A stretch of DNA of 64,000 bases from Ilyonectria destructans. Taxonomy: Eukaryota; Ascomycota; Sordariomycetes; Hypocreales; Nectriaceae. How positions within the stretch are numbered: the stretch's first letter is position 1; the number at the start of each line of letters is the position of its first letter. A program made the position numbers and the translations under genes. This document shows, piece by piece, positions 36,565 through 39,581 of this stretch. The stretch spans positions 4,278,001 to 4,342,000 of the forward strand of contig JAHEWK010000002.1 in NCBI GenBank assembly GCA_020740775.1, written 5' to 3'. Below the pieces are notes generated by a model, which was not told where the DNA came from, did not search any database, and saw nothing but the letters and a program-made list of their open reading frames with translations.

Positions 36565-38958
36565 TCAATCAGAGCCTGATCCCGTGATTTTGTGCCATGC
36601 CTTGTCCACCTTGTCGGTCAGCCAATCCCACCAGTTCTTGTCATCGTCGTCGTCGTCGTCGTCGTCGTCACCGTCACCTTTATCATCACTACCAGATGTC
36701 GGTTTGGCGGCGGGCTTGGTGGGCTCTGCCGGTTTGGTGGGCTCTGCCGGTTTGGTGGGCTCTGCCACCTTGGTAGGCTTTGCCGGCTCCGTTGGCTTCT
36801 CGGGTGCCGTCGGGCGAGCTGGTTGTGAGGGCGCAACAGGCAAGGTTGGCCGCGCCGGCTGTGTAGGCTTCTCATGGACCGCTGGTTGCTCCAACTTCGT
36901 TGACTCGTCCGGTTTATCTGAAGTCGCGGGATCTGCCGGTACATCGGGCGACTCCTCGGGGTTGTGGAGTCCGATGGGCTTCAGCGGCAACCGCAAGGTT
37001 CCGTTATTCGGGTGTGGCTCGAGGCCGATTGAGTCGCACAGCATGTTGTACACCTCGATATTTTCTGTGCAATGTTAGTCAACGTATCCTTGGCACCCCC
37101 GCGTTGCTTTGCACTTACGGAAGACATCGATCTGGCTGTTTGCCGGGTGGGGGAACGCAGGGCCCCGAGCAATGAAGATGGCCCGCATCAACGGGTGCTC
37201 ATGATCATACCCATGCAGGCCAACAGGATGGTAGATCAGTCCCTTCTCCAGTCCTTCCTTGACATTGAACTCATCCTCAGTGACAATCGCCCATCCCGTC
37301 TCAGGGACAATCCACAGAGGCGCGATACGATTATCCTTGGTGAAGTGATACCGCTCAGGCATGTTGACGTCACGAAGGTAAACCTCGAAGTGGGTGTTTG
37401 ACTTTGAATGCTCTACAAGCTCGTCATACAGACCTTGTAAATCCTCGGGGTTTTTGGGACGGAGACCGTACAGCGGCCAGCCATCAATGTGCTCAATTTT
37501 GTTGGTGTCGATAAGATCCTCGAGCTGGATCAGCCTGGTGATGTCCGTTGTCGCCATGCCATGATCTGAGACGACGATGACATTGACAATATCGGTCAGG
37601 TTGCGCTCATCTAGGCCCATAAAGATCTGGTCCATCATCGTGTCCACCTTGGTAATAGTCTCGTGGATTTCGGTGCTGTTTGGGCCGTATTTGTGTCCAT
37701 CGGAATCAACATGGGGGACATAGGCCGCAATCAACTGAGGGCGTGTATCCTTGAAGTCGGCCGACTTGTCCTCCAGGCCTGGCATGTCCAAGAATTCGAG
37801 GATTCTGGCAACCTTGCCATCGAGCGTGTCCTCTCGGCTGAACTTGTCCATTATGCTCGGCTCCGTGTGCAGGACATGCGCCTCGCTTCCAGGCCACATA
37901 TGAATGGCACTCCGAACTCCCTGCTCCTCAGCAGTCACCCAGAAAGGCACTCCACCCCACCACTTGGGGTCGAGGCTTCGCGCAGGGTCGGTGTAGTAGA
38001 ACTCGGCTCCAAGCTCGGGGTCCCAGAAGGTGTTTCCAACAATGCCGTGACTCTCCGGATACAGTCCAGTCGCGAGCGTGTAGTGGTTCGGAAAGGTCAC
38101 GGACGGGAATGATGGATGCATCCACTTTGGCGAGACGCCCTCTTTGACGAAGGCGTTCAGTCTGGGGGTGAGGCCGCGCTGGAGGAAGTCGGCGCGGAAG
38201 CCGTCTAGGCTGATGATGATGGTGGTGGGCGCAAAGAGCGCAGTGCCATTGCTCACCATCGCCTGCATCTTGGGTTGTACTCTTTTCCGGTTGTTCGACA
38301 GCTTCCAGGCGATCAGGATCAGGATTGCGAAACCGATGGCGATGAGGCTGTGAATGAACACCCACCGACGCCAACTCCGTCTTCGCTGGGCTTTTGCGTC
38401 GGCCATCATGTTGAGGTGTAGCCTATCCATCTCGTCGCTGTCATCCCTCTCGCTGCTTTCTCCGGTCGAGCTGCCTTCCTTCATACCTCCCTCTTCCATC
38501 TCGTACATCAGCTCTCCGTCCTCGCCATGCTGCGCATCGTCCAGCAACCGCTCGCGCTTCTTCTGTCTCCTCGTGCGCCTGGCGACCCTCTTTTCGGATA
38601 CCAGGTCTTCGGTCGAGCTGCTGGGATCTAGACCCCGGGAGGAGCCAGGGCGCCGTCCGAACATTTTCAGCGGGTTGGGAACGGCCAGTCCAGATCCGCG
38701 ACGCTCTCGTTCCTGCCTCTTGCGGGTGTCGGTGACCAGCTTGTCCGTCTCCTCCTCTTCCATCAATACAATGCGATCGTGGGCGCGGAGCTCGCGGCTA
38801 TTTCTTGCGCGAGAGATGAGCTGGTCATCGTCGCTGTCGGTGTCTTGGTCGCTTCGAGAATGGAGGGATGCTGCATCGTCGTCGTATCCAATAGGGGACA
38901 GGAGAGAGGCATTGTCTCTGCCCCCGTTGGGCGCATTCGTGTCAAGATTGAGAGACAT
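36565..38958 (-). CDS. Type II membrane nucleotide pyrophosphatase/phosphodiesterase (NPP)
   Basis: Ecto-type NPP of the alkaline phosphatase superfamily, expected to hydrolyse nucleotide di- or triphosphates in the vacuole or outside the cell. Two exons, 38958-37119 and 37064-36565, give 779 residues; the join reads DVFQNIEVYNMLC. An Asp/Arg-rich cytosolic N-terminus of about 198 residues precedes one membrane span (WVFIHSLIAIGFAILILIAW, ~199-218). The catalytic domain has SLDGFRADFL (metal Asp), the nucleophile Thr288 in SVTFPNHYTL, and the metal ligands HVDSDGHKYG, VSDHGM and HGYDHEHPLM. The C-terminus is unusual for the family: a Pro/Thr/Lys-rich stretch with EPTKPA repeats, ten consecutive Asp residues, and an amphipathic WWDWLTDKVDKAWHKI end. 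The Asp run corresponds to a GTC microsatellite at about 36645-36670. Confidence 0.93.
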
Positions 38959-39454
38959 TTTTGAAAGCCTTCACAAGCCTCTTAGACACATGGAATGGCA
39001 CGCATCAAAAGTCGCGATTGCTTGGAAAGGGGATGCAATGGTAACATTGAACTCGATAAGCTTATACTGACATGGACGAGACCGGGGTAAATATCCACCG
39101 GGCTCCGGTGAAGCCGTCTGACACACGGCCGATGTTTCTAAAACGGCACGACAAGACAGGCGACCTTCACATTGGTGGGGATTCACGCCAGCTCCTCAAT
39201 CCCATTACCTTATTTAATACAACGGAATCCACGCAAATCCCTTTGTTTGAGATAAATAATGTTGTCTTGTTACCAAGCGGAGGTATTTCCTTGTTTAAAG
39301 TTAATGTCACACCACCAGAAAATATCCACATCCGCCCTGCGCTCCGCCAAAAAGTAGGCCGCGCCAAACCCATGTCTGCATTGCATGGCATGCCACCCTG
39401 GTGAGGCCCCTCAGAGTAGGCAAAAGTAGTGGAAAACGGCAAAAAATAAGTCCT
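38959..39454. other. Intergenic region 5' of the NPP gene
   Basis: Promoter side of the phosphodiesterase gene, up to the tRNA-Phe 3' end. No ORF of substance. Apart from the oligo-A block at 39441-39446 (tRNA terminator on the minus strand), I see nothing assignable. Confidence 0.5.
39441..39446 (-). terminator. Pol III oligo-T terminator of tRNA-Phe
   Basis: Six A residues on the plus strand give TTTTTT on the minus strand, 8 nt past the tRNA discriminator base. This is the expected RNA polymerase III stop and argues that the tRNA gene is a normal Pol III unit. Confidence 0.85.
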
Positions 39455-39581
39455 TGCGGTTTATGTGGATCGAACACATGACCTTCAGATCTTCAGTCTG
39501 ACGCTCTCTGCCAGTGAAGGTTAGTGATTTGCTTGAGTGAGGGATTAATGTGTAAACATACCCCAACTGAGCTAAACCCGC
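39455..39581 (-). tRNA. tRNA-Phe(GAA) with a D-loop insertion
   Basis: The gene is 127 bp. Removing 39508-39561 leaves exactly 73 nt, the expected length without CCA. The 5' end is GCGGGTTTAGCTCAGTTGGG and the remaining mature part starts AGAGCG. The anticodon arm TCAGA-CTGAAGA-TCTGA has anticodon GAA and no intron at 37/38. The T arm is ATGTG-TTCGATC-CACAT. Box A (TAGCTCAGTTGG) and box B (GTTCGATCC) are intact, though 54 bp further apart than usual. The acceptor stem pairs well except for one G5/A68 mismatch. A TTTTTT terminator follows. The insertion falls between nucleotides 20 and 21 in the D-loop, which is not a normal tRNA intron site. Confidence 0.92.
39508..39561 (-). other. Spliceosomal-type intron candidate inside tRNA-Phe
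   Basis: 54 nt that begin GTATGT, contain CACTAAC with the putative branch A at 39521, and end GGCAG, 13 nt after the branch A. These are the same signals as in the protein-coding introns of this window. The ends can shift by one nucleotide because a G is repeated at the junction, but every option restores the same canonical D-loop. No bulge-helix-bulge context for tRNA endonuclease is apparent at this position. Confidence 0.75.

Follow-up and report, generated by a model that had tools for sequence, protein, structure and literature searches.

In teaching, the introns of tRNAs and those of mRNAs are kept apart as two separate worlds, each served by its own enzymes. The window analysed here, a 64,000-nt stretch of DNA, contains a tRNA-Phe(GAA) gene whose D-loop is interrupted by a short insert built like an mRNA intron. 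The locus raises the question of which splicing machine would process such a gene, and whether the interrupted copy is an isolated oddity or one member of a larger set.

An mRNA-type insert in the D-loop of a tRNA-Phe gene

The insert is 54 nt long and lies between nucleotides 20 and 21 of the tRNA, exactly where an earlier note on this DNA had placed it; the GTATGT start, the CACTAAC motif with its branch A followed by 13 nt, and the CAG end all read as that note had claimed (Table 1). The edge of the insert carries a one-base ambiguity, with the product the same either way. Excision in silico yields a 73-nt tRNA-Phe(GAA) that is called by ARAGORN. On the intact window ARAGORN calls no tRNA, and the Rfam tRNA model gives no match to the window at its gathering score, reaching a partial match of 25.9 bits where the cut-off is 29. 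As the note had also stated, the gene has no intron at position 37/38. Its description of the tRNA as otherwise perfect had overlooked one mismatch in the acceptor stem, G5·A68. Position 5/68 is mismatched in the other Phe copies too, being G5·G68 in the uninterrupted copy and in the copy on C34 (both by eye). We take TAGCTCAGTTGG to be the A box and TGTTCGATCCA to be the B box.

Table 1 Features of the interrupted tRNA-Phe gene (window positions; splice and branch sites as predicted)
Feature	Position	Strand	Detail
tRNA-Phe(GAA) gene with D-loop insert	39455..39581	minus	127 nt
5′ tRNA part	39562..39581	minus	nt 1-20
A box (presumed)	39563..39574	minus	TAGCTCAGTTGG; intact, just 5′ of the insert
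Spliceosomal-type intron	39508..39561	minus	54 nt; D-loop, site 20/21
5′ splice site	39556..39561	minus	GTATGT
Branch-site motif	39520..39524	minus	CTAAC; branch A at 39521
3′ splice site	39508..39510	minus	CAG
3′ tRNA part	39455..39507	minus	nt 21-73; anticodon loop uninterrupted
Anticodon	39492..39494	minus	GAA
B box (presumed)	39466..39476	minus	TGTTCGATCCA
T run	39441..39446	minus	T6; presumed Pol III terminator

Twenty interrupted tRNA genes in one genome

The window gene belongs to a group of 20 tRNA genes with D-loop inserts of spliceosomal type, 51–56 nt long, in the one genome covered (71.7 Mb, 74 contigs). These comprise seven Phe, six Arg(ACG), four Asn, one diverged Asn-like and two Pro(CGG) genes. 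An anticodon-arm search returned eight tRNA-Phe copies; seven are interrupted by 54–55 nt at one common site, and the eighth is uninterrupted. The same eight are the sole exact matches to a T-arm pattern, none of which is a Phe copy with a 37/38 intron; the pattern also gave six two-mismatch matches, one of them identified as tRNA-Cys. T-arm patterns allowing up to two mismatches place the insert in six of eight tRNA-Arg(ACG) copies, the six forming a tandem array, and in four of five tRNA-Asn copies. Interrupted genes are thus the majority in these three families (17/21), which also hold one Phe, two Arg(ACG) and one Asn copy without an insert.

Ordinary introns at 37/38 are present in the genome as well, for example in tRNA-Glu and tRNA-Pro(AGG), and four of the 20 genes carry two introns. 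One Asn gene has a second, 11-nt insert in its anticodon loop, positioned by eye; the second introns of the other three were placed by ARAGORN. Both Pro(CGG) genes combine a 53-nt D-loop insert with a 27-nt anticodon-loop intron. The Asn-like gene (C2:1410401-1410536) has many base changes, a D-loop insert of the form GTGAGT..CTGAC..CAG and an 11-nt intron at 37/38; with the D-loop insert removed it is still called as tRNA-Asn by ARAGORN, and it could be an ancient paralogue that remains functional.

Once the insert is removed in silico, ARAGORN calls the expected tRNA for 19 of the 20 genes, the twentieth being the two-insert Asn gene, for which the anticodon is undecided. With the insert left in, ARAGORN calls four of the 20 and gets the anticodon right for one of these, by way of an odd fold. 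A run of at least five T residues lies downstream of all 17 Phe, Arg and Asn genes and, by eye, of the Asn-like and both Pro genes.

The searches behind these counts were directed at the D-loop. The tRNA-family model scored 63 of 2006 first-look candidates, with mostly partial matches, making this a partial survey biased to intact genes. The two Pro(CGG) genes came from a search for an A box joined to a 5′ splice site. Contiguous patterns of this kind gave 21, 23, 17, 12 and 10 matches, against 27, 33, 58, 21 and 40 for the respective reversed-pattern controls; because the totals never rise above the controls, the counts alone prove nothing, and matches were judged by the tRNA downstream. A pattern combining CTAAC with a spaced B box recovered the two-intron Asn copy among 64 matches in total (98 in the control), the remainder being copies already known, uninterrupted tRNAs whose D-loop contains CTAAC (Gln, Glu and probably Leu) or matches unrecognised as tRNA. 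Pattern matches on C6, C9 (two), C12, C13, C15, C16, C25, C40, C45, C67 (two), C73 and at C74:2222079 have no recognisable tRNA by eye, and several are tandem repeats. A pattern scan gave no match in viral contigs, and the lone match on a prokaryote contig, with no ARAGORN tRNA nearby, looks like chance. Organelle-like tRNA genes were also seen on C31 (298,608 bases), at C31:205700-207000; this contig may be a very large mitochondrial genome.

Splice signals are kept in diverged inserts

All 20 inserts begin with GTRNG, contain a CTRAY branch motif (defined as lying 8–20 nt upstream of the 3′ end) whose A is followed by 11–13 nt, and end in AG. The terminal trinucleotide is YAG in 16 and AAG, a weaker 3′ splice site, in four (three Asn, one Pro). 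Extra AGs lie between the branch site and the inferred 3′ end in three of the four Asn copies, and in the Asn-like gene too by eye. The three-signal rule holds for 17/17 inserts, against 11 of 2,000,000 random 54-mers of the same composition; together with the recurrence in 20 genes, this excludes a chance origin of the signals. Minimum-energy folds of the insert-bearing precursors are not cloverleafs.

The tRNA parts are 97–100% identical among the seven Phe copies and among the six Arg copies, and identical among the three Asn copies that lack a second insert; the Phe copy on C34 carries two differences, and the Arg copies also include variants. The decay expected in the tRNA part of a pseudogene is accordingly not seen in the Phe and Arg families, and the Asn-like gene is diverged yet still called. 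Mean identity of the intron bodies (5′ hexamer to branch site) is 0.69 for Phe, 0.64 for Arg and 0.68 for Asn, against 0.59, 0.58 and 0.57 after shuffling. The flanks stand at 0.62–0.63 for Phe (shuffled 0.57) and at 0.62–0.65 for Phe and Arg together (shuffled 0.57–0.58). The Phe intron tail, behind the branch site, is fairly conserved (mean 0.79, shuffled 0.54); the CTGAC within CACTGACAG in four Phe copies is not the branch motif used for these body and tail figures. Likeness within the Phe family beyond the core signals could partly reflect shared recent descent. For the Phe copy on C8, the intron body exceeds the shuffled 95th percentile against only one of the six other Phe introns. Even so, this insert retains GTAAGT, CTAAC and TAG and is 54 nt long, and five of the six other copies match the tRNA part of the C8 gene exactly.

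Since the tRNA parts are almost unchanged and the signals are kept in diverged inserts, the tRNA and its splice signals are conserved while much else drifts. Gene conversion would be an unlikely cause of this pattern, because identity changes sharply at both exon edges, and the 20-nt 5′ part seems too short and too closely framed for it.

Comparable introns in a U6 gene and a neighbouring mRNA gene

A U6 gene of this genome (C1:6743874-6744043, minus strand) carries a 66-nt insert of the form GTAAGC...TACTAAC...CAG after ACAGAGAAGAT. The insert (C1:6743931-6743996) contains a B-box-like GGGTTCGAACCC. mRNA-type introns in Pol III-type genes therefore occur elsewhere in the genome. Two further U6-like copies, on C15 and C2, have no intron and differ in their 5′ part.

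The phosphodiesterase gene beside the tRNA (37078-38958) supplies a local mRNA intron for comparison: 54 nt long, with GTAAGT..CTAAC..CAG, it has the same build as the tRNA inserts. Joining its exons by eye gives F-Q-N-I-E-V, as in the Dactylonectria homologue. The best match to the protein is 97% identical; the best named ones are Dactylonectria macrodidyma (92%), then Neonectria (86%) and Thelonectria (83%), so that the genome most likely belongs to a member of the Nectriaceae. The agreement in size and signals with host mRNA introns is drawn from this one of 32 candidates, verified against the homologous protein; the other 31 are heuristic. At least one of those is false, as it overlaps the tRNA-Phe gene on the plus strand.

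Which machine would remove the inserts

We consider it very likely that the inserts are true U2-type spliceosomal introns in Pol III-type tRNA genes, removed as lariats before the tRNA folds. The earlier note had read the insert as an mRNA-type intron in a Pol III-type gene, and the 20 genes of four isotypes, the signals kept in diverged inserts and the U6 intron give that reading strong support. In the pathway we propose, Pol III would use the A box 5′ of the intron and the B box 3′ of it, and would stop at the T run. The nuclear spliceosome would then recognise GTANGT, CTAAC and AG, the 51–56-nt intron would leave as a lariat, and the D-arm and cloverleaf would form only once it had gone. 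Genes with two introns would meet the spliceosome first and the tRNA endonuclease second, because Sen54, a subunit of that endonuclease, reportedly makes contact with the D-arm (PMC4090602). We infer the transcription, splicing, order of steps and mode of gain of these genes from their sequence.

The endonuclease itself is the obvious competitor. The inserts would on that account be oddly placed tRNA introns cut by the tRNA splicing enzyme, a route that has been reported or presumed in archaea, Cyanidioschyzon and nucleomorphs. D-arm introns do occur in some eukaryotes (PMC4090602), and the ordinary 37/38 introns of this genome mean that the enzyme pathway is presumably present. All 20 inserts, by the positions we assigned, lie in the D-loop and none at 37/38. 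The earlier note had named endonuclease cleavage at the insert site as a finding that would speak against its reading; a bulge-helix-bulge does not form at the observed junctions, with at most two of four central-helix pairs in 17/17 genes (Phe, the window gene's own family, Arg and Asn) even when a one-base shift is included. This test applies the strict form, with a 4-bp central helix, to these 17 genes. The elements that are conserved—GTRNG, CTRAY and AG—are none of them required by a bulge-helix-bulge, and the insert disrupts the very D-arm that Sen54 is reported to contact. We therefore regard cleavage by the endonuclease as very improbable.

Nor is it probable that the interrupted copies are dead or nearly so, with the mature tRNA coming from a few intact genes, although at least one intact copy exists for each of Phe, Arg(ACG) and Asn, and eukaryotic D- and T-arm insertions are described as falling mostly in one of many copies, supposed pseudogenes (PMC4090602). 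Here the interrupted copies make up the bulk of three families, their tRNA parts are nearly or wholly identical beside diverged introns and flanks, and splice signals and T runs are retained in all 20. The alternative offered in the earlier note, that the insert is a neutral leftover in a dispensable copy, agrees poorly with the data for the same kind of reason: seven of eight tRNA-Phe genes carry the insert, and their tRNA parts are nearly unchanged. The count of Phe copies that the note called for did turn up one intact gene. The remaining possibility, that the loci are kept as binding sites for Pol III factors or as some other small RNA to which the insert is irrelevant, would account for an intact A box, B box and T run, but the anticodon, acceptor and T stems are conserved as well, and it gives no reason for branch and splice sites to persist in a diverged insert. 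We find it scarcely credible.

If the inserts are indeed spliceosomal introns, a dependence of the tRNA supply on the spliceosome may follow, as we infer; because intact Phe, Arg(ACG) and Asn copies exist, the interrupted ones may not be needed. Our joint reading, which we hold to be reasonably probable, is that most copies for at least three and perhaps four isoacceptors would be spliceosome-dependent, tying translation directly to splicing; that some genes would need two machines in a fixed order; and that there would have been at least four gains at four neighbouring D-loop sites.

Proposed origin and spread of the introns

Each of the four families has its own D-loop site: 19/20 in Arg, 20/21 in Phe, 20a/21 in Asn and 21/22 in Pro (numbering assigned here). 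All four lie just behind the A box, which would fit a need to retain both internal promoter boxes. With the signals masked, intron pairs within a family exceed the shuffled 95th percentile in 17/21 cases for Phe, 4/6 for Asn and 3/15 for Arg (a weak result), against 1/94 for pairs across these three families (1/42, 0/28 and 0/24), the comparison covering the 17 Phe, Arg and Asn introns. The pattern suggests either that the gains were separate and the genes duplicated afterwards, or that an earlier likeness has been lost with age. We think it probable that Phe, Asn, Arg(ACG) and Pro(CGG) genes each acquired their introns independently, with reverse splicing as a possible route, and that duplication of the interrupted genes then raised the copy number. 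On this comparison among tRNA introns, an origin from introners is not favoured, because Phe, Arg and Asn introns show likeness only inside their own family.

A separate observation concerns tandem arrays of intron-like units (GTAAGT..CTRAC..AG) arranged head to tail, at C67:1060200-1061400 (period 79) and C73:2404674-2404969, and by eye on C13 and C25. In places only 3 nt separate an AG from the next GT, as if these were single-codon exons.

Implications and relation to known systems

The genes described here suggest a part for the spliceosome in the making of these tRNAs. If so, a spliceosomal step enters tRNA making and ties tRNA supply to splicing, and one must ask how the spliceosome is recruited to a Pol III transcript, which has neither a cap nor a Pol II tail. 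The genes would also offer, within a tiny structured RNA, a naturally occurring series of intron gains, of which all those found so far lie just behind the A box. Because both ARAGORN and the Rfam model at its cut-off missed the window gene, other fungal genomes may hide the same introns.

Among the matches listed in the open-licence literature, judged by titles and the starts of abstracts, we found no paper that describes tRNA genes with spliceosomal introns. The string 'spliceosom' does not occur in the text of the tRNA intron review (PMC4090602) or in the tRNAscan-SE 2.0 paper (PMC8450103). The canonical 37/38 introns, which also occur in this genome and in four cases share a gene with a D-loop insert, differ from the inserts in site, signals and presumed enzyme.

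Inserts in the D-arm of eukaryotic tRNA genes, as here, are described in the tRNA intron review for Cyanidioschyzon merolae and for the nucleomorphs of cryptophytes and chlorarachniophytes, sometimes with a second intron elsewhere in the gene. The same source reports that bulge-helix-bulge motifs seem critical in Cyanidioschyzon; for the nucleomorph inserts (3–24 nt in Guillardia), removal is shown and its mechanism is given as unknown, and these lineages are treated as exceptions to the pseudogene rule. The inserts described here differ from both, being 51–56 nt long and having no bulge-helix-bulge in the 17/17 genes tested.

Spliceosomal introns in structured non-coding RNA, as we read the tRNA inserts, have a precedent in the U3 snoRNA genes of fungi. 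There, normal spliceosomal introns fall almost without exception in one 5′ stem-loop (PMC5832005). According to that 2017 survey, frequent interruption by an intron was so far known for no small structured RNAs other than U3 and U6, a statement in which tRNA is not named.

The U6 snRNA gene of fission yeast has an mRNA-type intron for which reverse splicing is the proposed origin (PMC10484740). That origin was proposed because the U6 intron lies near catalytic nucleotides, a closeness that the tRNA D-loop does not share. The feature in common would be a short Pol III transcript interrupted by a spliceosomal intron, as proposed here for tRNA, and the U6 gene of this genome carries a similar insert; in the present case, however, the host is a tRNA, and the introns extend to four isotypes and 20 genes.
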